Shown: positions 19,060 through 62,204 of the stretch, piece by piece
Layout of the letters: every line of letters starts with the position of its first letter
Numbering within the stretch: the stretch's first letter is position 1
NCBI RefSeq assembly: GCF_025717675.1
Contig: NZ_JAJIRT010000003.1
Coordinates: forward strand, 62,001 to 126,000
Source of the DNA: Paucibacter sp. DJ2R-2
GTDB lineage: Bacteria > Pseudomonadota > Gammaproteobacteria > Burkholderiales > Burkholderiaceae_C
Direction: 5' to 3'
DNA: 64,000 nucleotides
Notes under the pieces: generated by a model
What the model was told of the DNA's origin: nothing
The model's input: only the letters and a program-made list of their open reading frames with translations
Databases searched by the model: none
Position numbers and translations under genes: made by a program

Positions 19060-19085
19060 TCGGCATTTGAAGCACATTGCCCATC

Positions 19086-23310: not shown

Positions 23311-23346
23311 GTTCTAGCTCCGTGTGGGATGTGGCCAGTGCGAACT

Positions 23347-24123
23347 TCAGTTCGGGGTCGAGCTGCTGCCGTTTGGCGGCGTCCAATTCGTTGGAAGCGT
23401 GCGGTAGATTTCGATCTCAACCCTGCGATTGCGGCTCCTCCCTTCGGGCGTGCTGTTGTCGGCTGCGTGATCCCCGTTGGCTTGGTAGGTGCTGCGAATG
23501 CGGTCGGGCTGGACGCCTGCCGCGACGAGGAAATCAAATGCTGCTTTGGCGCGGCCGCTGGCGATGCGGATTTCGGCTGGAGTGGCCGAGCTGCCGTCGG
23601 TTCGTCCTCGGATCACCACCAGGGGTGCGGCTTTTGCTGCTTCGACCAGAGCATTGGCGCTTGGTTCAGGCAATTGGAGTCGTAAGCTGCCCGGCTCAAA
23701 GAACAGCGTCAGCACTTGATTGGCCCCTGGTGGCAAGTTCTTATGTGGAGGAATGCTGGCTAGGAGCTGCAAATGTGTGTTGAGCAAGCCCGTAAGTTCC
23801 GCTGTCGTCGCAGTGCGTGCCGCCAGCGCCTCCTGACGCCCACGTTCAGCGTCCTGATTCAAAAGTTTGGCGTTGTGGAGCTCACTCCTGCACGCATACA
23901 AACTGACCGTGCTGGCAGTGTTGGCCGGGCGCCGCCGGCTCTCATCCACCGTTGGGGGCTTTGGCGCTGAGCTGCATGAGCTCAGAGTCAGTAGGGCAGC
24001 GAGTGCAAGGCCGAGGCCGGCTCGTCTGGGGAGTGGTTTGCCTCGGCGATATGCTGCAGACGGTGCCTTGGGTGTGTGATTCGATTGAGGCCAGGTGTCG
24101 TGCTTATCCATGATTGTTGGCAT
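23347..24123 (-). CDS. OmpA-family lipoprotein of the T4SS operon
   Basis: 258 residues from 24123 (a second Met lies 4 codons on). A long basic N-terminus precedes a lipoprotein signal LALAALLTLSSC (Cys ~50). A helical segment follows (~90-120), then an OmpA-like domain with LTLFFEPGSLRL, VIRGRTDGSS and PEGRSRNRRVEIEIYR. It should be anchored in the outer membrane and bind peptidoglycan. Its position after virD4 and the absence of an obvious virB7 suggest that it helps hold the channel in the envelope (inference). Confidence 0.82.
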   Translation of the reverse strand: MPTIMDKHDTWPQSNHTPKAPSAAYRRGKPLPRRAGLGLALAALLTLSSCSSAPKPPTVDESRRRPANTASTVSLYACRSELHNAKLLNQDAERGRQEALAARTATTAELTGLLNTHLQLLASIPPHKNLPPGANQVLTLFFEPGSLRLQLPEPSANALVEAAKAAPLVVIRGRTDGSSATPAEIRIASGRAKAAFDFLVAAGVQPDRIRSTYQANGDHAADNSTPEGRSRNRRVEIEIYRTLPTNWTPPNGSSSTPN

Positions 24124-24160
24124 GGCGGGTCTCCGTCGGCTTGGAGTCGTGGTGATAGTT

Positions 24161-26170: not shown

Positions 26171-27330
26171 ACTGGGCTCCCAGCACGGTTCTGTATGGGC
26201 TTCAGATCCGTTGCTTCTGCCATCCCTGGCAGTGGCCTTCGGCTTGGCTGGCCCAGGTGGCGAGCTCGCAGACTGCGTGGGCGGTACTGCAGCTCGGAGA
26301 TGAATCGGCCTTGTTCGTCCCGTTCGAACTGAACGATGACGTCGACAACAATGTCCAACAGGCGTCGGATCTCTTCCAGGCTAAGGCCGCTGCCAGCTTC
26401 GGTTTCGCGGATCATCAGCGCCATCTGTTCGATGGCCAGGGCGCAACTGCCTGCGTGCACGCAGGTGATGCTGCCCGGATGTCCGGAGGCGGCCAATCTC
26501 ACGAAATGAAAGCACTCGTCGCCACGCAGCTCGGCCAGAAAGATGCGATCCGGTTTCATCCGCAGGCAGGCTTCCAGCAGTGATTTGGCAGTGACCCGCG
26601 CTGTGCCTTGATCGTCTTTGCTGTAGTAGAGATGCACTGCGTTCGGGTGGTGGGGCAGGGTCAGCTCCGGGGTGTCTTCGATGGTGATCAATCGTTCCTG
26701 CCTTGGGACTTCGTCGATCAAGCTCTTCATGAAGGTGGTTTTGCCTGAGCCGGTTCTCCCACTGATGATCAGGGTCTGGCGGCGCTGGATCGCAAGGCGC
26801 AGCATCTCCACATAGCGACCGCGTGACTGCAGGGCCAGAAGTTCTTGTTCGATGGGTTCAAGGCCGCTGGCTTCGATGTCCTGATGCAGGCGGGAGAACA
26901 GTCCTTCAAGGGCTAGGTCATCGAGGCACTTGTTCAGCGTCGAGGGTTTGCGCACGGTGATTGAGACCGTGCCTCGTGACACCGCAGGGGGAATGGCGAA
27001 CTGGATGCGTTCCCCGCTGGGCAATGTGGCGGAGAGCAGCGGGTGCTCCTGGTTGATTTGTTGATCGCAGAAGGTGGCGACGGCGGTGGCCAGAGACAGG
27101 CAGCGTTCTTGGGTCATGCATGGTGCCGGTACAGCTTTCCAGCCGCTGGCGGTCTCCACCATCAGTTCGCCGGGTCGGTTGACGCAGACTTCGTAAACGC
27201 CGGCCTGATCGAGCTGCTCACGCAAGGGACGCAGGAACTCAGTGACGGAGGTGGCATCTCCGAGCCAGGCGGCGTCGCATTTGGAGTCGTCCTTGAACTC
27301 CCCAGGAGACTCTTTGATGATCTCGCTCAT
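26167..27330 (-). CDS. virB11: VirB11 traffic ATPase
   Basis: 387 residues. Walker A GRTGSGKTT at ~191-199, Asp box TIEDTPEL, Walker B/His box region LAELRGDECF and SGHPGSITCVHAG. It is a hexameric ATPase at the cytoplasmic face that powers pilus assembly and substrate passage. It overlaps both virB10 and virD4 by 4 bp. Confidence 0.94.
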   Translation of the reverse strand: MSEIIKESPGEFKDDSKCDAAWLGDATSVTEFLRPLREQLDQAGVYEVCVNRPGELMVETASGWKAVPAPCMTQERCLSLATAVATFCDQQINQEHPLLSATLPSGERIQFAIPPAVSRGTVSITVRKPSTLNKCLDDLALEGLFSRLHQDIEASGLEPIEQELLALQSRGRYVEMLRLAIQRRQTLIISGRTGSGKTTFMKSLIDEVPRQERLITIEDTPELTLPHHPNAVHLYYSKDDQGTARVTAKSLLEACLRMKPDRIFLAELRGDECFHFVRLAASGHPGSITCVHAGSCALAIEQMALMIRETEAGSGLSLEEIRRLLDIVVDVIVQFERDEQGRFISELQYRPRSLRARHLGQPSRRPLPGMAEATDLKPIQNRAGSPV

Positions 27331-28934
27331 GGCGCTTCCTGGCGCGGATTGCTGCGCGGCGCCGGCCTCAGCTCGTATACCGACGAAAAGTCCACATCGT
27401 GGGCGACGTAGATGCCCACCAATGCACCTTGGTTCTGATAGATCAGCGGGGGGATGTTGATGGTGCTGTCCAGCACCTTCTCCGCCAGCTTGCTGGTGTT
27501 GGCAGTGGTGGAGGGCAGCACGACGGTGTCGTTGCCCCCCCGCCTGGGCTCTCTTTCGCTCTGGTTTTGGATCACCAGCTTCACTGAGTCGTCGATCAAC
27601 GAAAGCAGGAGGGCTGCGCCTATGCGTTCGCCCCAGCGTTTGTCGACATGTCCCTCGATGCCGGACTCACCCAGCGGCCCTGTGCCGGGTGAATCCAAGT
27701 CCACGACGATGCCCAGTGGTGTTCGTATACGTGTCCAAAGGACCGGAATGCGGATCGAGCCCGGCTTCATGCCGCTGACCCGGTACTCTCCGTCCAAGTG
27801 GGATCCGCGCTCGATCAGCAACACGCGGCCGTCTTCGCTGTACACATGGCGTTGAACCTGGCACCCAAGCAGGCCAGAGGTGGCGCTGATGACGCGTGTC
27901 TTGAGTGCACAGGTAAAGGCGGTGCCCTTGGGCAGCATCAGGCTGCGAGGGCTCAGGCGCGAGGCCATCACTCTCGCGGTGCTGGATGCCTGGAGTTGTC
28001 CTCCAAAGAGTCCGTTGCCGGATGCGGCCCTCTCGGTGGGGCGGAAACCGGCGAGGGCCTGATCGCCAGGGGTTGAGATGGGTGAACCCCGCGAAGCGGC
28101 GGATCGCACGGCCAGCTCGCCGTCTCGGTCTTCAGCGGGCATCTCATTCAATTGGAGCTTGGGGCTTGCAGCCAGCTCGGCGCCTTGAGTCAAAGAAGCC
28201 AGCAGGGTTTGCAGACGGGCTTGGTATTCCTGAAGGTTGCGGGCGGTGGCATCCAGGGCATCCGTCGTGCCGATTGCTCCTGCTGCCTGCTGCGGGGCGT
28301 CGCCTGATTCATTGGCAGTTCGGGGGAGCGTTGCCATTGAGATGAGCGTGCTTGGAACAGGTCGCGTGCTGACCAGCAGAATCGGGGCATCCTCGGGATG
28401 CATAGTTGATCGCTCAGACCTCCCCGGGTTGGAGGCGCTGGTTTTCCGAACTCCGATGGGATCTGCCAGGTCTTCCGAAGTGGGGATAGGTGCAGGGATG
28501 GTGACCGTAGCGACAGTGCCCGAGGGGCTCGGGTTTTGATTTTTGGCGGGAGGGAAGCTGATGGAGGAGGGATCAGCGGAGTTGGCTACAAGGTCGAACT
28601 TGCGTAGCTCGAGCGAGGCGGCCATGGGCCTGTCTCGTAGCGACCGGGTCTCAGTGCCTGCCGGCTTTTTGAGATATGTCATCAGGCGCTGAATGCCCAT
28701 CGCTGTCAGCGCACTCAGCGCGAAAATCAGCAGACCCACCGCCCACAGTCCCTTCTTTGACCACTTGCGCCTCGTGTTGTCGCACACATCAGGAATGGCA
28801 GGCTCGCCTGGAAGTGGAGCCATGCCGGGTGCTTGGCTGTCGAACCCTGGTTGGGCGTCGGCATCTCTGTGGCCACTGGGTGTGGAGGGCTCAGCGCAGC
28901 CGGTCCGGTCCTTCGTGGAGGTGTCTGGGCTCAT
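27327..28934 (-). CDS. virB10: VirB10/TrbI channel protein
   Basis: 535 residues, longer than the usual ~380-420. A cytoplasmic N-terminus is followed by one membrane helix (~45-65, GLWAVGLLIFALSALTAMGI), a long periplasmic linker rich in Ser/Ala/Pro (~70-310), and the C-terminal TrbI domain (LPKGTAFTCALKTRVISATSG... ERGSHLDGEYRVSG... LDSPGTGPLGESG). It spans both membranes and forms the outer-membrane core with VirB9. The extra length is in the linker. Confidence 0.93.
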   Translation of the reverse strand: MSPDTSTKDRTGCAEPSTPSGHRDADAQPGFDSQAPGMAPLPGEPAIPDVCDNTRRKWSKKGLWAVGLLIFALSALTAMGIQRLMTYLKKPAGTETRSLRDRPMAASLELRKFDLVANSADPSSISFPPAKNQNPSPSGTVATVTIPAPIPTSEDLADPIGVRKTSASNPGRSERSTMHPEDAPILLVSTRPVPSTLISMATLPRTANESGDAPQQAAGAIGTTDALDATARNLQEYQARLQTLLASLTQGAELAASPKLQLNEMPAEDRDGELAVRSAASRGSPISTPGDQALAGFRPTERAASGNGLFGGQLQASSTARVMASRLSPRSLMLPKGTAFTCALKTRVISATSGLLGCQVQRHVYSEDGRVLLIERGSHLDGEYRVSGMKPGSIRIPVLWTRIRTPLGIVVDLDSPGTGPLGESGIEGHVDKRWGERIGAALLLSLIDDSVKLVIQNQSEREPRRGGNDTVVLPSTTANTSKLAEKVLDSTINIPPLIYQNQGALVGIYVAHDVDFSSVYELRPAPRSNPRQEAP

Positions 28935-29887
28935 GGCAAGCCTCCAGATTTGGCAGCGCGCCTTGCTTCAAAGCCAGGCTTCAGCGAGCGCACCACACCC
29001 GGCACGGTGGTCCCATGAGAAGGCGGATTCCCGTCCAGATCGAAGGCGTCGTTCCAAAGGCCAATCACGGCCGCGCCGGTGCGGAGCATCCAATGCCTGC
29101 TGACGCGATCAATCACCAGCATGTCGTCTTCCATGCGGGCGTTCACCACGTTTTCGCTGCCGTCGCCCTGGACCTGGAAGACCGCGGGCACCTCACGATT
29201 GCCGGGATACTGCAGGTAGGTGAAGCGACCGTCGTCAAACACCAGTGACGGGAGGATCTCCTGGGAATCGGAGCCCTCTGCCATCGAGTATTGAGTGTTG
29301 ATGGGCTGCGCTTTGGAATGGAGCCTTTCCGCCACGACTTGCGAGTCGGAGAGGGGCGGCTGCAGGGCAGCTTGCTGCAAGCTGTGCAGCACATGGGGCG
29401 GCCAGGAGAACGGGCGTGTCGGCGCAGCGATTTCTTGCGAGTTGTCTGTTTCTTTTCGTGTCGATGGGGCCTTGACGCGAAGGCGGTACACCGGCGGATG
29501 AGGGTTCCTGTCGCTCAAGACTTCAAAGCGAAAGGCATGCACGCGCTGGTCGGTGACAACAGCCAGGTTGTTGGCCGCTGAGGCGGTGCTCTTGGGCTTG
29601 ATGAACAGATGACGGTCACCCGCCTGGGCCACCACACACCAGGCGGAGTCGGCCCTGAGGCAGTCACCACCGAGCCCCGCCGCCACTTCCCGGATGGTTT
29701 CGTCGCCGTCCAAGACGACATGGGTCACGATGCCACGCCGTACCGGCACGGTGACCACCGACAGAGCGCTGTAGATCACCTCGCGCAGGCGCGGCTCGGG
29801 TGTTGCCGGAATGCCTGGTGGCGTGCACAGTGCTGCGCGGCAGGTCAACAGCGCCGTGGCCGCTGCAAGCAGTGTTCGCGGATTCAT
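28931..29887 (-). CDS. virB9: VirB9/CagX core protein
   Basis: 318 residues. A signal peptide (NPRTLLAAATALLTCRAALC) is followed by an N-terminal beta domain (REVIYSALSVVTVPVRRGIV) and a C-terminal CagX domain with VFDDGRFTYLQYPGNREVPAVF and NARMEDDMLVIDRVSRHWML. It forms the outer-membrane core complex with VirB10. It overlaps virB8 and virB10 by 4 bp each. Confidence 0.93.
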   Translation of the reverse strand: MNPRTLLAAATALLTCRAALCTPPGIPATPEPRLREVIYSALSVVTVPVRRGIVTHVVLDGDETIREVAAGLGGDCLRADSAWCVVAQAGDRHLFIKPKSTASAANNLAVVTDQRVHAFRFEVLSDRNPHPPVYRLRVKAPSTRKETDNSQEIAAPTRPFSWPPHVLHSLQQAALQPPLSDSQVVAERLHSKAQPINTQYSMAEGSDSQEILPSLVFDDGRFTYLQYPGNREVPAVFQVQGDGSENVVNARMEDDMLVIDRVSRHWMLRTGAAVIGLWNDAFDLDGNPPSHGTTVPGVVRSLKPGFEARRAAKSGGLP

Positions 29888-30657
29888 GGCCGTTGCCCCG
29901 GCACGTTGGTATTGATTTCGGGGTCGGATCGGTAGGCCGTTACGACGAAGCCGAACGGGTTCTCAAGGCGGTCGCGTTCCTTTGCCAGTGCCTCAGGTTG
30001 GTATTGGTAAACCACGCTGGCCACGTGGCGACTGTTTAGCTCCGGCATGTTGCGCTCGCTGGCTCGAACGATCTTGTCGTAGGTGACCGTGGCTTCACCG
30101 CGATTGCCGCTGCGGCCCGATGCGGCTAGGCGAATGTGGATCACCTGAATGCGCCAGTCTTCGCTGGAACCCACACGCTTGTGCAGCGGAGCATCACCTT
30201 CGAACTGCCGGCTGTAGTCGGAAAACACTGTGGGAACTGCCATGCGGGCGACTTGGTCGAAGTCGCGTTGAAGGAACATCCAGCTGTAGCCCTCGCGAGC
30301 ACGCACGAAGGTGGCCAGGTTGTGCTTGTCCAGGGCCTCCAGAGGCGGAATGGATTCCACACTCAGTCGCTGCTGGATGGTGGCCTCGCCAGTGACGCGG
30401 TCCACCACGATGGGGATCTCGATCACGCGACGCAGTGGCCCTTGCACAAAGACGGCCGCGATGCCCATGAGACCCAGACCTAGGCCTGCGATCGCCACCC
30501 ACCAGGCGCGGCGCTCAGAGGCTTCGAGCATCACGGACCGATCAATCTCCCAGGCTCGATTGCACTCTATGGCCTCCACATCAGCTGGTGGTGGATTTGA
30601 AACGGCCTTGGGGTCTGGCCATGCGGCAGCGTGACCTCTGTTCAGGATGGCACTCAT
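29884..30657 (-). CDS. virB8: VirB8 inner-membrane scaffold
   Basis: 257 residues. A cytoplasmic N-terminus of ~50 residues precedes one membrane helix (~51-73, WWVAIAGLGLGLMGIAAVFV), then a periplasmic NTF2-like VirB8 domain (YVRAREGYSW-type start, RVGSSEDWRIQVIHIRLAA, ASVVYQYQPEALAKERDRLENPFGF). It nucleates the T4SS. It lies 93 bp downstream of virB5. Confidence 0.92.
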   Translation of the reverse strand: MSAILNRGHAAAWPDPKAVSNPPPADVEAIECNRAWEIDRSVMLEASERRAWWVAIAGLGLGLMGIAAVFVQGPLRRVIEIPIVVDRVTGEATIQQRLSVESIPPLEALDKHNLATFVRAREGYSWMFLQRDFDQVARMAVPTVFSDYSRQFEGDAPLHKRVGSSEDWRIQVIHIRLAASGRSGNRGEATVTYDKIVRASERNMPELNSRHVASVVYQYQPEALAKERDRLENPFGFVVTAYRSDPEINTNVPGQRP

Positions 30658-30750
30658 ATGAAGATCTCCGATGGCACTGCGGTACCGGCCGCTCAGCGTG
30701 CGTTCTGCTTGATGGCGTGTGGTGGGTTGCGAGGTGGGCCAGTGGGGGCT

Positions 30751-31446
30751 CTAGGGCAGGAAGTCAGATACCTTGCCCCTTCGGGAGAGCATCTGGTACT
30801 GACGCTCGCGGTCACGCGAGCGGGCGATGCGTTCTTCGCTGTCGGCCATGCCCTGCAACATCTGAATCTGCGACATCTCATGGGAGAGCAAGGCGTTCTC
30901 TGCGCCGATGCGCGCCTGAACTTCCAGCACCGATTTCTGATCGGTCGTCGCGTTGACCTGCGCCATGAGGGTTTGGATTTGGGTCAAGCGGCCAGCTGCG
31001 GCTCGCATCGCGTCCTGCAGCAAGCCTTTGTGCTGGTACGGCTGCGCCAGCCGCGCCTGGCATTGATTGCGTGCCTCGCCATTGAGATCCAAGCAGTTGT
31101 AGACCATGCCGCGGTCGCGCAAGACCTTGGCTGTGGTGCTCAAGCCGACGTAGCCGGAACTGTCGCTCGCATTGAGCAGGGTGTAGGCCTCGGCAGGCAC
31201 ATAGTTCTTCAGCAGCGGGTTGTTGAACACGGTGCCGAGGTTGCGGCTGCCGGTGCTCGCCTGGATTTGCTGCTGCATCTGCTGAATCTGGGCGACCTGG
31301 TTGTTGATCTGGGTGATGTCGTTGACCACCTGTTGAACGGTTTGGGCCAGGTTGGCCACATCGATCACGGGGATGCCTTGGGCCAGAACAGGCGCAGCGC
31401 TGAGCGCAGCCGACAGTGCGGAGATGAGTTGGAAGGTGTGAGCCAT
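30751..31446 (-). CDS. virB5: VirB5 pilus-tip adhesin
   Basis: 231 residues from the ATG at 31446, which has the perfect Shine-Dalgarno AGGAGG 7 bp upstream; the longer frame to 31611 reads as noise. A signal peptide ending in VLAQ is followed by an extended helical protein (VQQVVNDITQINNQVAQIQQ), with two Cys in the loop region (VYNCLDL, RNQCQAR). Typical of the VirB5/TrbJ minor pilin. It is encoded after virB6 here, the reverse of the usual order. Confidence 0.9.
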   Translation of the reverse strand: MAHTFQLISALSAALSAAPVLAQGIPVIDVANLAQTVQQVVNDITQINNQVAQIQQMQQQIQASTGSRNLGTVFNNPLLKNYVPAEAYTLLNASDSSGYVGLSTTAKVLRDRGMVYNCLDLNGEARNQCQARLAQPYQHKGLLQDAMRAAAGRLTQIQTLMAQVNATTDQKSVLEVQARIGAENALLSHEMSQIQMLQGMADSEERIARSRDRERQYQMLSRRGKVSDFLP

Positions 31447-31471
31447 TGAGTCCTCCTGTGGACTGCGGAGA

Positions 31472-32554
31472 TCAGCTGCGGCCGCGTTGGGCGGCCAGTT
31501 TGTAGGCGGCGCTTCGGACGGCGCCGTAGCCACGGCGAGCCATGTCGCCAAGTTCCTGCACTGCCGCGCTGGCAGTACGGCCCGTGTTGGCCGCCCGATG
31601 TCCTGCTGCATAGGGAAGACCTGCGCCTGCTCGCATCACGCCCCCTGGGGCGGAGCCTGATTCAGAGGCTGAGGGTGCCGAGCGTCCACGCGAAGCCGTC
31701 ATCGCGTTCTGAATCATTTGTATGCCTTGCTGGACGGCTGCCCCGCCCGTCAGCGCCGAGGCCAGGTTTGGCGCCTGGAAGCAGATGATGGCCATCAAGA
31801 CCATGACGATGCAGTACCGAATGGACTCGGTCACAGCGTTGAAGCTGGGGCCAAGAAAGCCGCCGTGGTCTTCAATGGTGTGGACCATCGCCTGACCCAT
31901 GTGCAGGCTCAGGCCCAGGGCAAAGAAGGAGAACCAGGTCAGGACCACGGCGTTCAAGACCATAGACAGCCAACTGTCGAAGAATCGAGCGGTGGGCCGC
32001 CATGCCAGGCAGAGAATGAACAAGGGCCCGACAGCGAGGACAAAGGCGAGGAAGAGCTTTGCGAGTGTGACCACATAGAGGGCGATGCAAAGAAAGACTG
32101 CATTGCCGATTGATGTCAAGACAACGGCGAACAGCAGGTCCAGTCGTGTGAGGCTGACTTCCCGGAAGAGGTCAGAGACCAGTTGGCTGGCCTGGTCGTT
32201 GAAGGTGTCCAAGAGCGAGTAGGGCGAGGTCACCGTTAGAGGATCTGATGACGAAGGTAAGAATGTTGTTGCTACACCGTAAGCCAATGCCTCCGCGGTT
32301 TCGGATACGTGGCGTATGTAGAAGGCAGACTGCAGTGCAAAGGCCAGGACCAAGCCCACTTTGAAGACCTTCCACGCGAACACCGGGATGCTTTCTGACA
32401 CCTCATTGCGCAACACCGCCCAGCCATAGAGCGTCACCCAGACAGTCATACAGGTCAGTGCGAGCGGGGTGATGGCCGTCATCAATGCTGTCACCACACC
32501 CAGCACATAGGTGCCGAGCACTGCATGTAGCTGATTGCCGACCCAGGTGAACAT
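31472..32554 (-). CDS. virB6: VirB6/TrbL inner-membrane channel protein
   Basis: 360 residues with about six hydrophobic segments, a periplasmic loop at ~85-120 (VATTFLPSSSDPLTVTSPYS) and the strongly conserved VirB6 core (VLTSIGNAVFLCIALYVVTL... FILCLAWRPTARFFDSWLSM). The C-terminal tail of ~90 residues is Ala/Gly/Arg-rich and cytoplasmic. It is the polytopic part of the translocation pore. Confidence 0.9.
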   Translation of the reverse strand: MFTWVGNQLHAVLGTYVLGVVTALMTAITPLALTCMTVWVTLYGWAVLRNEVSESIPVFAWKVFKVGLVLAFALQSAFYIRHVSETAEALAYGVATTFLPSSSDPLTVTSPYSLLDTFNDQASQLVSDLFREVSLTRLDLLFAVVLTSIGNAVFLCIALYVVTLAKLFLAFVLAVGPLFILCLAWRPTARFFDSWLSMVLNAVVLTWFSFFALGLSLHMGQAMVHTIEDHGGFLGPSFNAVTESIRYCIVMVLMAIICFQAPNLASALTGGAAVQQGIQMIQNAMTASRGRSAPSASESGSAPGGVMRAGAGLPYAAGHRAANTGRTASAAVQELGDMARRGYGAVRSAAYKLAAQRGRS

Positions 32555-32572
32555 GGCGTGGCTCCCGACTGC

Positions 32573-32974
32573 CTATTGCACAGCCGGGGACGGCAGGCTT
32601 TTGGTGCTCACGCAGTCCTGGTTCAAGTCGGGGTAGCTGCAATGCATCCATTGCCCACCCGTCTTCACAATCCACAAGCGTGAGCGCTTCTGTGCGCCAT
32701 AGGTAGACGCACGGCAGGTGGTGGGTCGGGCATAGATCTCGGTGCACTCCATCAGTCCTTCTGGGGTTTCAACCATGCGCCAGCCTCCCCCCAGACAGCC
32801 AGGACTCGCTGCGGCGCAAGGCTTTGGCAATAGTGCGTGAGTGGTGGGCGGTGTTTCGATACGCTTGCTGCCGCCGGGAAGGATGCGCACCGCCTCATTG
32901 CCCTTGACGTACTGGGCTTGGGCCGTCAGCGCTGCCAGGCACAGCAGGGCTATCGTGGGGTGAGCCAGATTCAT
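32573..32974 (-). CDS. Cys-rich exported protein in the T4SS operon
   Basis: 133 residues from the ATG at 32974, which overlaps the virB4 stop (ATGA). A signal peptide (MNLAHPTIALLCLAALTAQA) is followed by a short mature protein with six Cys (KPCAAASPGCL, MECTEIY, TTCRAS, HCSYPDLNQDC), enough for three disulfides. It has no lipobox, so it is not a classic VirB7 lipoprotein. The position between virB4 and virB6 suggests a small periplasmic T4SS part. No family is recognised with certainty. Confidence 0.8.
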   Translation of the reverse strand: MNLAHPTIALLCLAALTAQAQYVKGNEAVRILPGGSKRIETPPTTHALLPKPCAAASPGCLGGGWRMVETPEGLMECTEIYARPTTCRASTYGAQKRSRLWIVKTGGQWMHCSYPDLNQDCVSTKSLPSPAVQ

Positions 32975-35466
32975 GCGGAACTCCTTGAGTTGCGGGCCTT
33001 GCGAAGCTGCACGTCCTGGAGCAAGCGGGGCAACCACTGCGCGGGCGCTTCGCCATGAGCCAAGCGCAGACTTTCGAGCAGGGCCACGTTGTCGGTGGTG
33101 GCGGAAAGCACCGTGATGAGGTCATCCAGACCTGTCAGGTCGAGCTCGCAGATGGCACTGTGGTGACCTTGCTTGACTAGAAAGCGGCGTCCGCCTTGGG
33201 CGCTCAGGCTGCGCACGATGTCGAATTCCGCGTCGCTGAGGCCGAAGCCATCTACGTACTCTTCGCGCACCGCTTCAGGATTGGCTAGAAAGATCTTGGT
33301 CACGCTCTGCTCGACCAAGGTCCGGCCGATGGGGTGGCGCAGGACGTCCGAGGGACTCTGGGTGTCGAAGATGCCCAGGCCGTTTTGCTTGCGGATGGTC
33401 TTTTGCTGGTGCTTGGCGAAATCGCTGAAGATGTCGTGGTCCAGCGCTTTCCAAAACTCGGAGATCACATAGATCAGTCGATCTCCATTGACCAGCTCGT
33501 TCATCAGATGCAGCAGGTACATCATGATCGGTGTGCGGACCTCGGGCAGCTCCAGAAATTCGGTGGTGTCAAAGCCCAGGATGGTGGCCTGCGGCATGTC
33601 TCCCAGCTGATCAGGCGCTTCGTCGAACACCCAGCCGAGCGGGCCACCTTCGCACCAGCGGCCCAGGCGCTCATAGAGGCTGTTTTCTCCGGCCTTGGGC
33701 AGGTTCTGGCGCAGCGTTGAAAAGCGGCGTAGCGGCGCCGGCATCATCGCCACGGCTTTGACTGCATCGGCGATGGCGCGCTCGTCGGCGGGTAGAAGCG
33801 GCAGAGCAGTGCTGGTGATGCAGGTTCGAATCAGCTGCTCCCAGAACTGCAGACGTGCTGGCGTGGGTGGTTGCTGCAGTGGGTTGCATCCGGTTGCCTT
33901 GCCGGCTTCAAGCGTGAAGTAGCGGCCGCCGAGTGCTCGCAGTGCGATCTCGCATCCGCGGTCCAGATCAAACAGGACCAGGCGCGGAGCAGGCTGCCAC
34001 TTCTGCGTCAGGGAGAGAAGGAACATCTCCAGCGTGGTTTTGCCGACGCCGGTGGAGCCGATGATCAGGGTGTTGCCTGGCAGCTTTTGGTCGATCGAGT
34101 CTTCTCCATCGGGGCTGCTGTGCAGGTTGAGGTAGAAAGGTTGTCCTGACGGTGTGCGCAGCAACGCCAGGGCCTCTCCCCAGGGGTTGCCGTCACGCTT
34201 GCCGCGCGCGAAGTTGTGTCCGCTGGCCAGGGCGGCAAAGGCGCGCGATGAGAGCTTGGCTTCGCGCGGACGCCACTGCCAGTTGGTTGGCATTTGGGCG
34301 AACCAGGCCGCATCGGCGACGAGATCCACCGGTGCCATCTGCAGTGCCGAAGCTTCACCGACAGCCCCAATGGCCTGGGCTGCCCGTCGGCCGGCATCGG
34401 CGACATCCTTGCCGAAGACGATCAGTGAGTAGTGGTACTCGCCCATGCAGAACTGGCCATCTCCGAGCTCGTTCATGGCCAGGTCCATCTCGGCCACTTG
34501 GCTGGCGACCGCGTCGTCGCTGGCGATCAGTTGGTCGCGCTGCAGTTCCAGTGCGCGCATGGCCTGCCGGCGCGGAAGGATGGAGAAGCTCTGGGTTTCG
34601 ATGAATTCGCTGTGTTCGTAGAGCAATGCGTTCAAGATGCCAGGCTCCACGGCATCGGCGTATTCCTTGATGTCGACCAGTGCGGCGTAGCGGATGTGGC
34701 TGCCTTGCCGGAGTTCAAGCTTGTCGCCTCCGAAGGACAGACGTGCCGTAGGCAAGGTTCGATAGAGAGGGGTCGGCGTCATCGGGATTGGCCGCCAGCA
34801 ACCATTCACCAGAAATCCCAAAAAGGCGGCCACCTCGGACCAGCTGCGCCCCTGATGCTGTCGGGTACCCAGCAGCTGCGGACCAAAGCCACGCAAGACC
34901 CGCTCCACGAGGGCTGACCGTTCTTCCATGACGCGCAAGGCCTCTGCTTGTGCCTCGGCGATGGCAGCTCGCGTGCGTTGTCGAGCCTGGAGAGCCCGGC
35001 TGATGCGAAAGGCATGGGGGCGGTAGACCAAGGTCAGATAGAGCTCATTGCTCATCATGGGCCGTTGATTCAAACCGTCCTGGTAGCGGCGTGACAGGTC
35101 TTGCGCAAAGCCTGGATGCGCCGGATCGCGCAGGCGGTCGCCAACGGTCCGATGAATGCGGTGGGTCCAAACCGCCCACTGGCCGCCCGAGAGGTTGCGC
35201 AGCAGGCTGCACAAGGCTTCATGGCGCTCTGTGATCTGGTGATCGTCCGCACACTCGAAAGCCACGCCTTCAAGCCGCCACACCCTCAGATAGTCTCCAC
35301 CGCGGGTGATCACATCATGAGGGCTGACCAGGGACGAGAAGGGCACAAAGCGCGCCATGGGGTTCTCGGCTCGGATCTGTTCCCAGTGTCGCGGTCGGCG
35401 GCCACGAAAGAGGCTTCGGTTCGGTGCCGCGTGGTCCGCGGCGTTGGTGTCAGGTATGCCAAGCAT
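32971..35466 (-). CDS. virB4: VirB4/TrbE conjugal transfer ATPase
   Basis: 831 residues from the ATG at 35466 (MLGIPDTNAAD), which overlaps virB3 by 17 bp; a further Met lies 10 codons upstream. The N-terminal CagE/TrbE domain (FVPFSSLVSPHDVITRGGDY) is followed by an AAA+ domain with Walker A GSTGVGKTTL near residue 465 and the downstream RLIYVISEFWKAL Walker B region. It drives pilus biogenesis. Confidence 0.94.
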   Translation of the reverse strand: MLGIPDTNAADHAAPNRSLFRGRRPRHWEQIRAENPMARFVPFSSLVSPHDVITRGGDYLRVWRLEGVAFECADDHQITERHEALCSLLRNLSGGQWAVWTHRIHRTVGDRLRDPAHPGFAQDLSRRYQDGLNQRPMMSNELYLTLVYRPHAFRISRALQARQRTRAAIAEAQAEALRVMEERSALVERVLRGFGPQLLGTRQHQGRSWSEVAAFLGFLVNGCWRPIPMTPTPLYRTLPTARLSFGGDKLELRQGSHIRYAALVDIKEYADAVEPGILNALLYEHSEFIETQSFSILPRRQAMRALELQRDQLIASDDAVASQVAEMDLAMNELGDGQFCMGEYHYSLIVFGKDVADAGRRAAQAIGAVGEASALQMAPVDLVADAAWFAQMPTNWQWRPREAKLSSRAFAALASGHNFARGKRDGNPWGEALALLRTPSGQPFYLNLHSSPDGEDSIDQKLPGNTLIIGSTGVGKTTLEMFLLSLTQKWQPAPRLVLFDLDRGCEIALRALGGRYFTLEAGKATGCNPLQQPPTPARLQFWEQLIRTCITSTALPLLPADERAIADAVKAVAMMPAPLRRFSTLRQNLPKAGENSLYERLGRWCEGGPLGWVFDEAPDQLGDMPQATILGFDTTEFLELPEVRTPIMMYLLHLMNELVNGDRLIYVISEFWKALDHDIFSDFAKHQQKTIRKQNGLGIFDTQSPSDVLRHPIGRTLVEQSVTKIFLANPEAVREEYVDGFGLSDAEFDIVRSLSAQGGRRFLVKQGHHSAICELDLTGLDDLITVLSATTDNVALLESLRLAHGEAPAQWLPRLLQDVQLRKARNSRSSA

Positions 35467-35782
35467 CGGAGGCCCCCCGGTACAGGTTGGGTGCATAGCT
35501 GCGTGCGTTCCAGAGGCCGTGATTGCGGTCCCAGCGGCGCAGCTTCAAGGCCACAAGCATCTGTCGCAGACGCTGGTCGTCGCGGCTGGTGACGATGCGC
35601 ATCCAGAAGAAGGTGGGCAGCAGAGCGGCCAGCACGGCCAGTGCGATCCAACCGCTGAGCAGGAGGCCGCCCCACAGGCATATCAGCAAGCCGCTGCCGG
35701 AGAGCAGAACCAGTGGCACCAATGGAACGCCCAGCTTCATGGCCGGACGAGTAGCGCCTTTGTAGATGGCCTCGCTTTGCAT
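35450..35782 (-). CDS. virB3: VirB3 inner-membrane protein
   Basis: 110 residues. It starts MQSEAIYKGATRPAMKLGVP, the VirB3 signature, then a hydrophobic stretch of ~45 residues (two close membrane segments) and a basic C-terminus. It helps VirB4 function at the inner membrane. It overlaps virB4 by 17 bp. Confidence 0.9.
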   Translation of the reverse strand: MQSEAIYKGATRPAMKLGVPLVPLVLLSGSGLLICLWGGLLLSGWIALAVLAALLPTFFWMRIVTSRDDQRLRQMLVALKLRRWDRNHGLWNARSYAPNLYRGASDAWHT

Positions 35783-35800
35783 GATGGTGCTCGTCAGCGA

Positions 35801-36091
35801 TCAGAGCACGATGAAGCTGGCGAAGGCCGCGGCGCCGCCGACCAAGGTACCGCCGATCAGCACGTTGGCCACGTCAACCAGACGCGCCCCCTGAAAGATC
35901 ATCTTGAAGCCAGCCCAAATGATGGCCATGGTCACGACGGCCACTGAGATGGTCACGAGGATGGCATTCACATTGGTGACCGTGGTGTTGATTTTTTCGA
36001 AGCCCTGGGCCATGGCGGACGAGGACACCAGTGCTTGCGCCAGGGCGATGAAGATCGGCGTGTCGCGCCGCACAAGATCGATGCGTTTCAT
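35801..36091 (-). CDS. virB2: VirB2 major pilin
   Basis: 96 residues from the ATG at 36091 (MKRIDLVRRD). A long leader ends near SSAMAQG, and the mature part has two hydrophobic helices (VNAILVTISVAVVTMAIIWA and NVLIGGTLVGGAAAFASFIV) around a short basic loop (FKMIFQGARL). This is the normal VirB2/TrbC pilin layout. The start overlaps the virB1 stop by 4 bp. Confidence 0.9.
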   Translation of the reverse strand: MKRIDLVRRDTPIFIALAQALVSSSAMAQGFEKINTTVTNVNAILVTISVAVVTMAIIWAGFKMIFQGARLVDVANVLIGGTLVGGAAAFASFIVL

Positions 36092-36597
36092 GTCTTCTCC
36101 TTCGGTGGGTGTGTTGGGGAAGGGGATGTGGATCGCTGGGCGGCCGCCATCACTTTGCGGACGTAGCCGTGCTGAAATCCAGTTATGACGTTGCCGCTGT
36201 AGTAGCAGGACAAGGCGCGCCGAAGTGCCGATTGAGGGTCGAGGCCTTGGCCTTTGTTTGGCGCCGCTCTCTTGAAGCATTCGGTCAGAACGGTTTGCAT
36301 GCCAGCAAGATTCGCGCAAGGGCTAAATGCCGTCTCCAGGGCCATGCCCAGGCGTTTGAAGTGTCTGACGTTGATTTGGCCGAGACCGACGCTGAAGTTC
36401 CAGCCCACGGCATGCAGGGCGCGAGCCGTGGCCACGGCTTCGGCAAGGTGGCGGGGCTGACGATCCAGCATGCCGCCGACAAGGCCTATTGCATTGGGAT
36501 TGAAGCCGCTCTCGACGGCGACCAATGCGCGCGCGGTGTCCACATGGACGGCCGGAGCGCAGGCCAGGGCCAGGGCTGCAAAGGTGGCGGCGTCCAT
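36088..36597 (-). CDS. virB1: VirB1 lytic transglycosylase
   Basis: 169 residues. SLT fold: the catalytic Glu is in ALVAVESGFNPNAIG (E28), followed by VGLGQINVRHF and CYYSGN. It opens peptidoglycan for T4SS assembly. A typical Sec signal is weak, though the first 20 residues are hydrophobic (AATFAALALACAPAV). The gene is the first of the virB-named set, coupled to virB2. Confidence 0.92.
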   Translation of the reverse strand: MDAATFAALALACAPAVHVDTARALVAVESGFNPNAIGLVGGMLDRQPRHLAEAVATARALHAVGWNFSVGLGQINVRHFKRLGMALETAFSPCANLAGMQTVLTECFKRAAPNKGQGLDPQSALRRALSCYYSGNVITGFQHGYVRKVMAAAQRSTSPSPTHPPKEKT

Positions 36598-49396: not shown

Positions 49397-49399
49397 GCC

Positions 49400-52050: not shown

Positions 52051-52061
52051 GGCGCTCTTCC

Positions 52062-54197: not shown

Positions 54198-54363
54198 GTA
54201 AGGGTCCTTCGAGGTTGGCAAGGGGATGAATGAAGTCTGGGCGAGGCAGCCCGCTAGGGCAACGCATCTGGCGGGGGGCATGGCCGGAAAAAACGGGGGA
54301 TGGGGCAAACCCGAGCGCATGACGCCGAGCGGCGGCCGAACGTGCCATGCACAATGAACCGGC
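54198..54363. promoter_or_regulatory. Divergent promoter region, TonB receptor operon and MalT-like regulator
   Basis: The 166 bp between the two divergent starts must hold both promoters and probably the regulator binding site. A GC-rich palindrome-like GCCGAGCGGCGGCC lies at ~54324-54337. No box can be assigned with confidence. Confidence 0.45.
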
Positions 54364-57054
54364 ATGACATCGACCGCCGAGCCCGCCCTGCGCTTTGAAC
54401 CCTTCGTGCATGTGGACGAGGCCTTGTGGCGCCAACGCGTGATCGACCGGCTGCTGAACGCCGCCCCCAGCTCAGCCCGGCTGACCCTGCTGAGCGCACC
54501 GGCGGGCTTCGGCAAGACTACGGTCCTGGCACAGCTGGCCGACTACACACGCGGCGAAGGCTCTGTTGTCGCTTGGCTGAACTGCGACGAGCGCGACAAG
54601 GACCCGGTGCTGTTCGCCGAGAACCTGCAGGCCGCGCTGGGCCGCTGCAAGCTGAGCCAAAGTGCCAGCCCGTCTGGACCCTCTGCCTCCTCTGCCTCCT
54701 CTGCTCTTCGCCTGGCCGAGCTGCGCGAGCCCTTGCTGATCTGCCTCGACGACTACGAATGCGCGTCCAGCGTTGCGGTGGACGCCATCGTCGAGGAGCT
54801 GGTGCTGGCCGCGCCGGCCAATGTCAACATCGTACTGGCCAGCCGCGAAGCGCCCCATCAACACCTGACGCGGCTGCAGCTGGCCGGAAAGGTGCGCCTG
54901 GTCGATGCCGAGCTGTTGCGCTTCACCCGCGTTGAGTCGGTGCAGCTGCTGTCCGACGCCTTGCCCGAGGCCGCCGCTCAGCAGGTCGCTGCCTACGCCG
55001 ATGGCTGGCCGTTCGCGCTGCAACTGGCGAGACTGCGCGTGAGCGGCGGCGCGGCGACCACCGACTGGACGGTCGATGCGCAGGCGAAGATTCCGCGCCG
55101 GCAGATCTTTGATTACCTGGCCGAAGAGGTGCTGGCCACCTTGCCTGCGGAGTTGCTCGAATTCCTGGGTGACGTGGCGGTGCTGGACATCGTCGATGTG
55201 GCCAGCGCCAATGCTTTGCGCGGCCGGGACGACAGCCTGGCGCTTATCCAGCAACTGGCGCGCATCAAGCCGATTGCCGTGGTCGATGAATCTCCCTGGT
55301 CGGCGCGGCTTCATCCGCTGCTGCGCGACTATCTGGTCGACGCTGCCGAACTGATTTCACCGGGGCGCATGGCCAGCCTGCACCTGCGCGCGGCCCGTCA
55401 CTTGGCCGAGCGCGGCCAGCTTCATGAGGCGGTGGCCCATGCGGTGGCCGGTGGGCGGCTAGACATGGGGGCCGATCTGATCGAGGCTGCGGGCGGCTTT
55501 CTGCTGCTTGCCAACGAGGGCGCGGTGCGCTCGCGTTTACTGCTACAGCAATTGCCCGAGGCGACGATACGCAAGCGACCGCGGCTGCGCCTGCTGCAAC
55601 TGGTACTGCAAGTGCTGGAGGCCGACCCGGCTAGTGCGGCCCTGGAATTCGAACGGTTGGAGCAGCAGATCCGCGCGGCCGACACCGGCGCCGACGACCC
55701 GGCACGATTTGACCTGGAGGTGTCGCGCTGCATGATGCAGATGAACCCGGCCGAGCACAATCTGCGCTTTTCGCCCTGGTCGGTGCTGGACCAGGCGCGG
55801 CGGCTGGCGCGCGCTCATGCTGGGCAGGACCAGCGCCCGTTGGGCTGCACCGTGCCGATCGAGATATTTTTCTTGCACCGTTACGGCCCGGTCGAGCGCT
55901 GCGAGCGCCGCATCCGAGAGGTTGAGGCAGTGTTCGCCAGTGGTGCCTACACTTACAACAGCCCTTGGATATGGGTCTACCACGCTCGCAGTGCCTTGGC
56001 ACGCGGCGACCTGGCGCAGGCTGAGCGTGACATCCGTCAGTCGCTGCAGCAGGACGCGAATTTTCTCAACTTCCGCCAGGGTTCGCTGAGCCGACTGGTT
56101 AGCAGCCTGCTGGGCCATATCGCCCGCCTGCGCGGCGAGACCGAGGTCGCATTGGAACATTTCTCGGCCATGGTGCCGTGGGGACCCACGCGGCTGCTGG
56201 AGGTGCTGTACGCCGGCCATATCGAGACCGCGCTGTGTGAGTTCGCGCTGGGTCATGCGGATCGTGCGATGGAATTGTTAGAAGTTGCCCGCCACCTTGC
56301 TTTCGAGGAAAGCCTAGCGCATCTGGAGGTGCTGGCTGGTGCCGCGCAAGTGCAATTGTTGGCACGCCTGGGCAACTTGGACGGTGCGCAGGCGCTGGCC
56401 GCGCGCATCAAGCTCGACGAGCTTTGGGCCCTGGCACAGGAACCCTTCGCCTTGCCCTGGATCTCGGTCGAAGGGCTGGCGCAGGCAAGCTTCTTCTTGC
56501 AGATGGGGTACGGCGATGCAGCGGCGGCTGATTCGACCGCAACAGCGTTGCTGGGCCTGGCGAAACGCACCGGTCATCGCCTCGGCGAATTGCACGCTCA
56601 CTTGATGGCGGCGCGTGCACGCGAGGCGCTAGGTAATGCCGGCGCTGCCCAGCGCGCGCTGCTGCATGTCTTGGTCCTGGGCACACACAGCGGTGCAATC
56701 CAGCCCTGTCTCGACTTCGGCGCCGAGCTGATCACCCAGGTACGCAGCTGGCTTTCGACTGCCTCGGCGGCCGATAGTAGCCCCGAGCTGCTATGGGCGC
56801 AGGCGCTGGTAAACACTTGGGAGCAACGCTTCCGCAGCCGCGCTCTGGGAGACGCCGACAGCCCGCTGACACCACGCGAGGTTGACGTGCTGTGCGAACT
56901 CGCCAAGGACCACACAACCAAGCTGATCGCCAAGAACCTGCTGTTGTCCCCAGAAACCGTCAAGCATCACTTGAAGGCGATCTTCTCCAAGCTGAACGTG
57001 CGCACGCGAGAGGATGCGATCCTGGAGGCAAGGCGGCGAACGTTGATGCCATGA
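54364..57054 (+). CDS. MalT-like (LAL) LuxR-family transcription activator
   Basis: 896 residues. Walker A SAPAGFGKT at ~44-52, a Walker B-like LLICLDDYEC (~125), a NACHT/NB-ARC-like ATPase core, long TPR-like repeats (~340-800) and a C-terminal LuxR HTH (LTPREVDVLCELAKDHTTKL, then SPETVKHHLKAIFSKLNVRT) at ~838-890. LAL regulators such as MalT bind an inducer and ATP, oligomerise and activate a target operon. It is divergent from the TonB-HyuA-DUF917-permease operon, which it likely controls. The inducer may be the imported hydantoin-like compound (inference). Confidence 0.92.
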   Translation: MTSTAEPALRFEPFVHVDEALWRQRVIDRLLNAAPSSARLTLLSAPAGFGKTTVLAQLADYTRGEGSVVAWLNCDERDKDPVLFAENLQAALGRCKLSQSASPSGPSASSASSALRLAELREPLLICLDDYECASSVAVDAIVEELVLAAPANVNIVLASREAPHQHLTRLQLAGKVRLVDAELLRFTRVESVQLLSDALPEAAAQQVAAYADGWPFALQLARLRVSGGAATTDWTVDAQAKIPRRQIFDYLAEEVLATLPAELLEFLGDVAVLDIVDVASANALRGRDDSLALIQQLARIKPIAVVDESPWSARLHPLLRDYLVDAAELISPGRMASLHLRAARHLAERGQLHEAVAHAVAGGRLDMGADLIEAAGGFLLLANEGAVRSRLLLQQLPEATIRKRPRLRLLQLVLQVLEADPASAALEFERLEQQIRAADTGADDPARFDLEVSRCMMQMNPAEHNLRFSPWSVLDQARRLARAHAGQDQRPLGCTVPIEIFFLHRYGPVERCERRIREVEAVFASGAYTYNSPWIWVYHARSALARGDLAQAERDIRQSLQQDANFLNFRQGSLSRLVSSLLGHIARLRGETEVALEHFSAMVPWGPTRLLEVLYAGHIETALCEFALGHADRAMELLEVARHLAFEESLAHLEVLAGAAQVQLLARLGNLDGAQALAARIKLDELWALAQEPFALPWISVEGLAQASFFLQMGYGDAAAADSTATALLGLAKRTGHRLGELHAHLMAARAREALGNAGAAQRALLHVLVLGTHSGAIQPCLDFGAELITQVRSWLSTASAADSSPELLWAQALVNTWEQRFRSRALGDADSPLTPREVDVLCELAKDHTTKLIAKNLLLSPETVKHHLKAIFSKLNVRTREDAILEARRRTLMP

Positions 57055-57209
57055 GGGTAAGGAATCCCGACTCTACGGAGACTCGTTGGCACTGACCTGC
57101 TGGAGCTCATTCAGTACGACAGATTTCTGGGCAGCGCCTACGCCGGATTTGGGCTGTTTCTTGCCTATCTCCTCCTTCGGCATGAAGCGGTCGCCGCGGC
57201 AGCGCATGA
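57055..57209. other. Spacer after the LAL gene
   Basis: No full gene. A 36-codon minus-strand frame (57073-57183, MPKEEIGKKQPKSG...) has no known match and is too short to call. Confidence 0.3.
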
Positions 57210-57412
57210 CGTTGTCTTGACCATCACTTGAGGCGCTGGCCTGACCGCGGTGGACTCGATGCGCCGACGGATCGCATCAGCTCGGCAATGCATCCAGAGT
57301 CCAGGCGAGGCGTGCGTGGCGCTTTGCCTATGCGATTGCCTGGTTTCAGCTACCGATCTCCCCACTGCATCAGCCCGCCGTCAATCCTAGGGCCATTGCT
57401 TAGCGACGCCAT
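57210..57412 (-). pseudogene. Decayed relaxase N-terminus
   Basis: The minus-strand frame from 57412 reads ...IDGGLMQWGDR-stop-LKPGNRIG, matching IDGVLVHWGDRLFYPSNRVF of the intact relaxase (residues 7-26) with a TAG in place of a residue. In another frame AIRRRIESTAVRPAPQVMVK (57284-57210) matches AIRRRIEATVVRRAPQVMVK (residues 44-63). So one stop and at least one frameshift are present, and the rest of the gene is gone. It is preceded by the decayed accessory gene in the same order as in the intact pair at 19.1-20.7 kb. Confidence 0.85.
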
Positions 57413-57523
57413 GCTGTCCACAGACTGGATGAAGGCGCCTGCAACCGGACACTGGCGCGCAGGACTGGCGTCAGCACAGCCATCAAAGGGGCCGCGAGAA
57501 CACGGTGCCGGTCAACGGCATCT

Positions 57524-57676
57524 CTAACCCCATTCGAAGCCAGCAAAAGAGCGGGTTCTCAGCCAATCAGCTAGGACCAGGCTCACAAGGGCGGAAACAC
57601 TGGTGGGGTGGGACTTCGCCATGGCGCTCAGCGCCGGCCCATGCCCTCGCAGGTCAATGCTGACCCGCGCTCGACG
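57524..57676 (-). pseudogene. Decayed relaxosome accessory (MobC-like) gene
   Basis: The minus-strand frame reads RRARVSIDLRGHGPALSAMA, then KSHPTSVSALVSLVLADWL, ending at a stop (57524). It parallels RRVRMSVDLRGCHGALLAVA and VPVTSLLRAAILEWLE of the accessory protein at 19086-19754. Only ~50 residues remain, against 222 in the intact gene, and no start codon is visible. Together with the relaxase relic it shows a second mob module once existed here. Confidence 0.8.
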
Positions 57677-57747
57677 AACAGCCCCGGGGAGGGCTGCCGG
57701 ACGGGCATTCGCAGATCGAAGTCGCGCAGGCCATACCTGAAAATTTG

Positions 57748-57768
57748 CACCTGAGTATTCTTCAGGTG
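57748..57768 (-). terminator. Possible terminator after the alpha-hydroxy-acid oxidase gene
   Basis: The stem CACCTGA/TCAGGTG with a 7-nt loop lies just downstream of the oxidase stop. On the minus strand it is followed by CAAATTTT, a weak T-run. Confidence 0.5.
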
Positions 57769-57774
57769 GGTGAG

Positions 57775-58926
57775 TCAAGAGTGGAAGGTGCCTGGCACCA
57801 AGATACTCTGGTCGACTGTCTGAATGTTTGTGCGGCCGCAGAACGCCATGCTGGTGTCCAGCTCTTTGTGCAGCAGTTGCAAGCAACTCGTCACTCCGGC
57901 CTCGCCCATCGCACCCAAGCCGTAGGCCATCGCACGGCCAATCATCGTGCCTCGAGCGCCAAGAGCCCAAGCTTTGAGGACGTCCTGGCCTGAACGTATG
58001 CCGCCGTCCATCCAAACTTCAGTCTTGGAACCGACGGCTTTGACAATGGCAGGGAGTGCTCGAATGGTGGATGGCGCGCCATCCAGTTGGCGGCCGCCGT
58101 GATTGCTCACAACGATGGCGTCGGCTCCATGTTCTGCTGCCAGTTCAGCGTCTTCCACTTCCATGATGCCCTTGAGGATCAGTTTGCCCCCCCACTGATC
58201 CCGAACCCAGTCGATATCGGACCAGGAGAGTCGCGGGTCGAATTGCTCGTTCGTCCAAGCAGAGAGCGAACGCATATCGCTGACGCCTTTGACATGGCCA
58301 ACCAGGTTGCGAAACGTTCGGCGCTGAGTGGCCAACATTCCCAGGCACCAACTTGGTTTGGTGGCAAGGTTGAGAATGTTTCGAACTGTGGGTTTGGGTG
58401 GTGCGCTCAGTCCGTTCTTGATGTCTTTGTGTCGCTGACCAATGACCTGCAAGTCCAGTGTTAGGACCAGAGCGCTACACCTTGCGTCATGGGCGCGCTG
58501 GATCATCTTTCGCATTGCATCACGATCGCGCATCATGTAGAGCTGAAACCAGAATGGGCTGCTGGTGTTTTCTGCAATGTCCTCGATCGAGCAAATGCTC
58601 ATGGTGGACAGGGTGAAGGGGACACCGAACTTCTCAGCGGCTCGAGCGGCATGGATCTCACCGTCGGCATGCTGCATGCCGGTGAGACCAACGGGTGCGA
58701 TGGCTACGGGCATGCGTGCCGCTTGTCCGACCATACGGGTCGCGGTCGAACGGTTTTCCATGTTCACGGCCACGCGCTGGCGGAACTGGATGCTCTGAAA
58801 GTCAGCTTCATTGGCCTTGTACGTAGACTCAGTCCAGGAGCCGCTGTCTACGTAGTCATAGAACATTCGAGGCACACGTCGTTGGGCAAGCTGGCGCAGG
58901 TCTTCAATGCAAGTGATCGTGCTCAT
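57775..58926 (-). CDS. FMN-dependent alpha-hydroxy-acid oxidase/L-lactate dehydrogenase
   Basis: 383 residues from the ATG at 58926 (MSTITCIEDLRQLAQRRVPR). It is a TIM barrel of the LldD/glycolate oxidase family: Y23/Y25 in MFYDYVDSGS, FMN-binding PVAIAPVGLTG (~73-83), FQLY (127-130), LKGI (251-254), and the catalytic His-Arg in SNHGGRQLDGAPS (H276, R279). It oxidises an L-2-hydroxy acid, L-lactate being the common substrate; the exact one is unknown. No lldP or lldR gene is adjacent. Confidence 0.92.
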   Translation of the reverse strand: MSTITCIEDLRQLAQRRVPRMFYDYVDSGSWTESTYKANEADFQSIQFRQRVAVNMENRSTATRMVGQAARMPVAIAPVGLTGMQHADGEIHAARAAEKFGVPFTLSTMSICSIEDIAENTSSPFWFQLYMMRDRDAMRKMIQRAHDARCSALVLTLDLQVIGQRHKDIKNGLSAPPKPTVRNILNLATKPSWCLGMLATQRRTFRNLVGHVKGVSDMRSLSAWTNEQFDPRLSWSDIDWVRDQWGGKLILKGIMEVEDAELAAEHGADAIVVSNHGGRQLDGAPSTIRALPAIVKAVGSKTEVWMDGGIRSGQDVLKAWALGARGTMIGRAMAYGLGAMGEAGVTSCLQLLHKELDTSMAFCGRTNIQTVDQSILVPGTFHS

Positions 58927-59831
58927 GATTTCATGGGTAAAACACAATTTCATTAATGTATCACTGAAGATTCGAATTCGTGGATCGTTTGACGTGGCGC
59001 TCCGCGACAAGCCTCCGCTTATTGGTGTGACCACCTCATGCCTGACTTGGCACTTCATACATGAATGCTGAAGCGTGGCCAGATGAACCAATCTGGTGCT
59101 TGCGAGGTCCGCAACTTGCGCGGCCAGCGAGTATGTATGGAGAGGTTCGGGCGCTGTAGGGCCGTCACGTCTGGGTGGCCTCAGTGAGGAGCCGCTGGCG
59201 CTTGGCTTGTATCTGCCTTCTGCTTGCAGTGCTGCCTGTGCCTCCACGAATGCTTGGCTTCCCCAAGCTTCAGTGCGCGCTGCTTGCGTGTCGCTTTCAA
59301 GTTCTACCCGTTCTGCCAGATCTTGTCTGGAGAGCTACGACCCTGGCCTGGTCGAGGGGCCAGGGGAATTGTTACGTTGTGAATCCATTCGCCAGCGCGG
59401 CCGCTCGTCTTCAATGTGATTGCAACCTTTGTTCTTAACCTTGGTGCCTCCACGGGCGAGTTCGGCGAAGCCTGCCCTGGCTGGCATATCAATCTTGAAG
59501 TGCAGCTGCTCAGAGCGCTTTCAATTTATTACACCCACTGGATGTAAGTATTGACGCAAGATGGCTTGCGTCCTAAAGTGCTTCTCATGAAAAGCAAGAC
59601 GACCGTCCGTGTTGGCCTTCGGCGAACCGTGGCTTCCGCTGGAGTTGGCTTGGAGGGGCGCGCAGTGCGGCTGATAGGAGTCGCTGCAGCCGCCTCTGTT
59701 TGCTCCTTGGCGGCAATGTGTTGACTCAGAGAACTGACCAGCAAGTCCTCGGCCCTGGGCATTGAAAACCGACCGACCTTCGCAACACGCGCTAGGTGAG
59801 TTGACTCCAACATTTGAATCCCACCCTCTCT
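58927..59831. other. Gene-free stretch with one perfect palindrome
   Basis: About 900 bp between divergent genes. No supported gene is seen. A 94-codon minus-strand frame (59529-59813) is Pro/Thr/Arg-rich and reads as noise. It contains the promoters of both neighbours and the 20-bp palindrome at 59553. Confidence 0.5.
59553..59572. promoter_or_regulatory. Perfect palindrome GACGCAAG-ATGG-CTTGCGTC
   Basis: Two 8-bp arms without mismatch around 4 nt, 260 bp upstream of nagB-II. No T-run follows, so an operator (for example for a GlcNAc/GlcN-responsive regulator) is more likely than a terminator. The site does not match a consensus I know. Confidence 0.5.
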
Positions 59832-60884: not shown

Positions 60885-61030
60885 TGCAAGACGGGTTCGC
60901 CCGTGTGCATTGAGAGCAGGGCCCGATGTCGCTATTCAGGCGGCATTCCTGCACGACCAACTTGGCGATCAATTTGGTTGGGGGCAGCACGACCGATAGC
61001 AACAAACCGACAGCAATGGAGACCGACACT

Positions 61031-62146: not shown

Positions 62147-62204
62147 GTTCAGCGGATTGCTCGCAACTGGCCCAGCGGTGCTGCCCATTCTCGGAGTCTA
62201 GATC

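Follow-up and report, generated by a model that had tools for sequence, protein, structure and literature searches.

A decayed accessory-relaxase gene pair in Paucibacter sp. DJ2R-2, related to an intact mob module in the same window and most likely not copied from it

The feature at positions 57216-57688 on the minus strand of the window, by which is meant the whole 64,000-nucleotide stretch of Paucibacter sp. DJ2R-2 DNA that was analysed, is real and consists of the degenerate N-terminal remains first of an accessory gene and then of a relaxase gene. It is very probably the inactivated front of an accessory-relaxase (mob) module that was once part of an integrative element (mobilisable or conjugative) or of a genomic island that held such a module, and it is kin of the element at 19-37 kb and most likely not its copy. 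A related but separate element would have arrived independently and later been lost by deletion, leaving about 470 bp that would then have picked up a stop codon, a frameshift and an internal deletion. Homology, gene order, decay, a sharp break and a closer similarity to the modules of other genomes can all be observed in the DNA.

The intact module in the window comprises an accessory gene (19077..19754) and a relaxase gene (19738..20730), both on the plus strand. The relaxase passes the cut-off of the Pfam family Relaxase (PF03432; 38.8 bits vs 24.6) and falls below that of the NCBIfam model MobP1 (NF041450; 104.8 bits vs 200). The accessory gene has no Pfam family above cut-off and is called MobC-like solely by its position before the relaxase; genes annotated mobC adjoin some plasmid relatives of the intact relaxase, a likeness of annotation and position only. 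Searches of plasmids with the intact relaxase returned 2586 records, all below 60% identity. Among the listed records, those that cover 85-88% of its length, some of them annotated traS or rlx, share 37-42% identity with it; they are MOBP-type relaxases (PF03432), annotated as TraS or relaxase on PromA-like plasmids. Type IV secretion genes recognised by Pfam adjoin the relaxase at 20871..36597 on the minus strand, with DUF1173, LPD7, OmpA-like, VirD4-, VirB11-, 10-, 9-, 8-, 5-, 6- and 4-like and SLT/VirB1-like members, the VirB numbers being our assignment from the Pfam families. No PF00589 tyrosine integrase match was found in the window, and the only one on contig C22 lies at 466 kb.

When both intact proteins were compared with the whole window by tblastn, the relic ranked first among all places other than the genes themselves. 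With composition correction off, accessory residues 23-65 matched 57676-57548 (minus strand) at 42% identity (E 1.6e-5), while relaxase residues 7-44 matched 57385-57260 with a TAG inside and residues 41-65 matched 57284-57210 in another frame at 76% identity, the two minus-strand relaxase pieces having a joint E of 4e-10. With composition correction on, the three pieces gave E values of 1e-4, 5e-4 and 6e-5. The sequence-only reading, which had described a minus-strand pair matching the N-termini of both proteins in order, was thus borne out, and 57216-57688 gives the best outlines of the homology. Comparison with shuffled sequence had been set beforehand as the test able to refute it: in Smith-Waterman alignment the relic scored 85 with the intact accessory protein and 88 with the intact relaxase, and the highest values reached were 58 and 56, respectively, by 500 dinucleotide shuffles of a 720-bp stretch and 56 and 58 by 82 other 720-bp stretches of the window. 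Either piece alone is short, as a chance similarity or a match to another gene would have it; this explanation is nonetheless exceedingly improbable, given that none of the 500 shuffles or 82 other stretches scored as high and that the relic DNA finds relaxase genes in other genomes.

The accessory piece occupies 57548..57688 on the minus strand and corresponds to residues ~21-66 of 225. It is followed by a degenerate stretch (57390..57547) and then by the relaxase piece (57216..57389), which corresponds to residues ~6-63; the usable length comes to 47 accessory residues and 174 relaxase bases. From accessory residue 65 to relaxase residue 7 there are 484 bp in the intact module and 162 bp in the relic, so that about 320 bp have been lost inside it, and in the alignments listed the C-terminal half of the accessory gene could not be clearly made out in 57390-57547. 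Both lesions that the first reading had claimed, an in-frame TAG (57350-57352) and a frameshift (located between 57284 and 57260), are present, no open reading frame is kept, and the evidence supports the description as a decayed mob module. Homology to the relaxase ends at residue 63-64, before a His-rich HEHxxxxHxH stretch that starts at residue 164 of the intact relaxase, ~100 residues past the break, and which we take to be the catalytic motif; this catalytic part is absent from the relic. Since the piece ends before it and contains no complete gene, the relic is dead and cannot yield a working relaxase.

When 399 family genomes were searched with the relic DNA, the best two candidates per genome being considered and counts being lower bounds, matches were found in at least 18 genomes, own included. 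All 18 of the listed relaxase-region matches from other genomes end at query positions 558-560, equal to 57215-57217, and the right homology edge is therefore a sharp break. About 160 bp (57055..57215), in which nothing was recognised, separate the break from the stop codon of the adjoining LuxR-type gene; only short, chance-level matches occurred among the relatives' loci compared, and none in plasmids. At the other edge, a minus-strand stretch (57689..57774) that follows the FMN-dehydrogenase gene contains an inverted repeat seen by eye (57748-57768) and then ~60 bp without recognised origin before the accessory piece. The repeat was not listed by the terminator scan, and neither Rfam (E up to 5) nor the promoter and terminator scan gave anything credible around the relic. 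Within the same stretch, 40 bp at 57698-57737 are 85% identical to a stretch of one family genome (locus L053, genome G078), the sole listed foreign DNA match outside the relaxase region. A conserved oriT or element end was considered for these 40 bp and rejected, the motif occurring in six of 159 loci, five of which are the same place and the sixth L053; it is also carried by 59 viral contigs (raw count).

The kinship of the relic was assessed with 57 relaxase N-termini from the loci of relatives and the window, excluding matches that start after relaxase residue 8 and identical segments; the first 500 bases tell all 57 apart from one another, and the decayed copy on contig C1 described below is absent from the set. 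The best of the 57 is locus L039, with 129 of 173 positions identical to the relic, and the third is L012 from a genome of the same genus, G008 (122/171). The intact copy of the window matches at 112/168 positions, joint 45th of 57 by alignment score, and is 39th by identity in a common alignment; it was nearest to the relic in one of 2000 bootstraps and tied with or beat L039 in 13. In the DNA searches, the relaxase gene of L039 is 73% identical to the relic over 173 positions, and that of a further locus, L040, is 83% identical over 69 bases. The accessory piece agrees, with 58% identity over 43 residues to the protein of L009/L136 vs 42% to that of the window. In the tree, the intact copy is sister to L006 from another genome (100/100), and the relic's smallest well-supported grouping is a clade of 11 rows (98/88), with the intact copy inside it as well. 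Forcing the relic and the intact copy together as sisters cost 21 log-likelihood units, with an AU test p of 0.155.

Because the relaxase ranks, the tree and the accessory identities agree, the most likely course is a separate arrival of two related elements. By these sequence comparisons, modules from other genomes are nearer to the relic than the intact copy is, a strong preference that, at an AU p of 0.155, stops short of a formal exclusion of sisterhood. The sequence-only reading had offered two origins, namely two related elements that landed here or one element duplicated or rearranged, and it is the former that is favoured. A duplicate of the window's own module, moved and inverted by rearrangement and then decayed, would account for both genes standing in the same order and for the same peptide stretch being kept, and it can draw on the AU result, on the shortness and decay of the relic and on the fact that one of the nearest modules, L012, comes from the same genus; the low rank of the intact copy by score and identity, its near absence as nearest row among the bootstraps and the lower accessory identity nevertheless make this origin improbable. 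If the two copies had separate origins, as preferred here, their inverted orientation and 37 kb spacing carry no meaning.

The module family is common and often repeated within one genome. Of the 399 family genomes, at least 67 contain a relaxase match (E up to 1e-30) and single genomes contain up to five, in a search that took the best five candidates per genome and gives counts as lower bounds; at E up to 0.001, five of 18 genus genomes have one, own included. In the comparison with related genomes that the first reading had proposed, no copy of the relic was found in the 17 other genus genomes (best 30 candidates per genome), the sole genus match to its DNA, in G008, being the front of an intact relaxase. 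The surroundings of modules were read in 28 stretches (27 distinct modules, L009/L136 being one contig), most covering ~9 kb on each side and some ended by the contig, so that farther secretion genes lie beyond reach. Homologues of DUF1173 and LPD7 occur in four of them (L125, L128, L138 and L142), with VirD4 too in L125 and L138; a weak VirB11-like ATPase match in L123 (35%) was left out of the count of secretion systems. A transposing relaxase element of HUH type that moves without an integrase was considered and rejected. Some copies have no tyrosine integrase within ~9 kb (e.g., G072:C1 at 968 kb and 4180 kb), but several have one nearby (G149:C1 at 971-973 kb; G197:C66, C24 and C44); the four stretches with secretion-linked homologues and an ordinary-looking island site at a tRNA-Met gene also speak against such an element.

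A third member of the mob family was found in the same genome at C1:280878-281315; it is decayed, with three TAGs, and retains relaxase residues 160-305 only. The arrival and decay of the family in this genome is thereby seen independently. This C1 relic (locus L081, C1:271001-291000, at ~9.9-10.6 kb) adjoins a tRNA-Met gene and an IS66-like transposase. As it covers a different part of the relaxase from the relic in the window (residues 7-64), the two might be halves of one module split by rearrangement. This is very unlikely: the breakpoints do not meet (residue 64 vs ~160), and the C1 relic shares 79-90% identity with L010, whereas the relic in the window matches 123/173 positions (71%) of L096, taken as the same gene as L010.

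Four genomes, own included (L009/L136, L010/L093, L088 and L081), have a module or its remains after the same tRNA-Met gene, a site near nadK-recN-rapZ that was identified in L009 and matched by protein similarity in the other three. The gene between tRNA-Met and nadK is presumably hrcA, judging by gene order, and the tRNA-Met gene is present in 15 of 17 genus loci read at the gene so called. Of the 105 pairs formed by these 15 loci, none shares more than 99 bp aligned in the DNA behind the tRNA (~1.2-1.4 kb compared). Since this DNA differs beyond ~100 bp between genomes of the genus, the place looks like an island hot spot.

Around the relic itself, both flanking genes are intact. A LuxR-type regulator with MalT-like TPR repeats (54364..57054, plus strand; Pfam GerE 2.9e-15) converges on it from the left and has close full-length relatives in three of 17 other genus genomes (66%, 51% and 51%), and an FMN-dependent dehydrogenase gene lies to the right (57775..59247, minus strand; Pfam FMN_dh 3.3e-139), with relatives in 18 of 18 genus genomes and other neighbours in those read. 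The G+C content is 0.646 on the left (48101-57054) vs 0.569-0.585 on the right. Farther right, genes for GH80 and GH46 chitosanases are adjacent at 60926-63032; the GH80 gene is found in one of 18 genus genomes, own, and may have been acquired. In a low-G+C stretch at 38-48 kb, 44033-44992 encodes a TIR-domain protein that is possibly defence-related.

The first reading had also suggested that the copies may mark former element boundaries, and for the relic this is possible. In its favour are the step in G+C and the patchy distribution in the genus of the tested genes of both blocks; the relic may be a scar left where these two accessory gene blocks were joined. No direct repeats of at least 20 bp bracket the relic, a length below which shorter or worn repeats would escape. 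Nor does the window contain a further copy of the 3' ends of three tRNAs (Met and two Lys), and for this reason the element of the relic is not delimited. A clean empty site could not be named, as the neighbours of the FMN-dehydrogenase and LuxR-type genes differ in the relatives read. Because the searches yielded neither an att site nor a tyrosine integrase nor an empty site, the boundary is something that we infer. A bolder proposal is that accessory-relaxase modules lacking type IV secretion genes nearby repeatedly occupy the tRNA-proximal edge of islands in Burkholderiales, given one tRNA-Met gene in four genomes, and that the relic is a lost island edge that joins a genus-unique chitosanase block to a hydantoinase/LuxR block; we regard this as speculative and rather unlikely.

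The nearest known counterparts of the relic are Burkholderiales modules with the same two genes in the same order, for example L039/L091 (G197), L012 (G008; here only the end of the accessory gene was matched) and L009/L136 (Roseateles sp. MAG Bin5). Their relaxase frames have no stop, and the L009/L136 module starts ~200 bp after tRNA-Met, whereas the relic is truncated and adjoins no tRNA. The relic DNA had no match in plasmids at E up to 0.01. Degenerate integrative mobilisable and conjugative elements typically keep mobility genes that are truncated and frameshifted, the remainder of the element being gone, and the relic resembles them in its truncated and frameshifted genes, although the ends of its element are not fixed here.

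The relic is an ordinary fragment of a common mob family, and such scraps are themselves ordinary, so by itself it is of little importance. It does carry a caution, in that two copies in one window do not amount to a duplication when the family concerned is common and repeated. For drawing the limits of islands in Burkholderiales, some use may be made of the modules that adjoin tRNA-Met and, as far as the stretches were read, have no secretion genes. For the genome of Paucibacter sp. DJ2R-2, the three members together suggest that one mob family entered no fewer than two times and probably three, two of the arrivals being decayed today.
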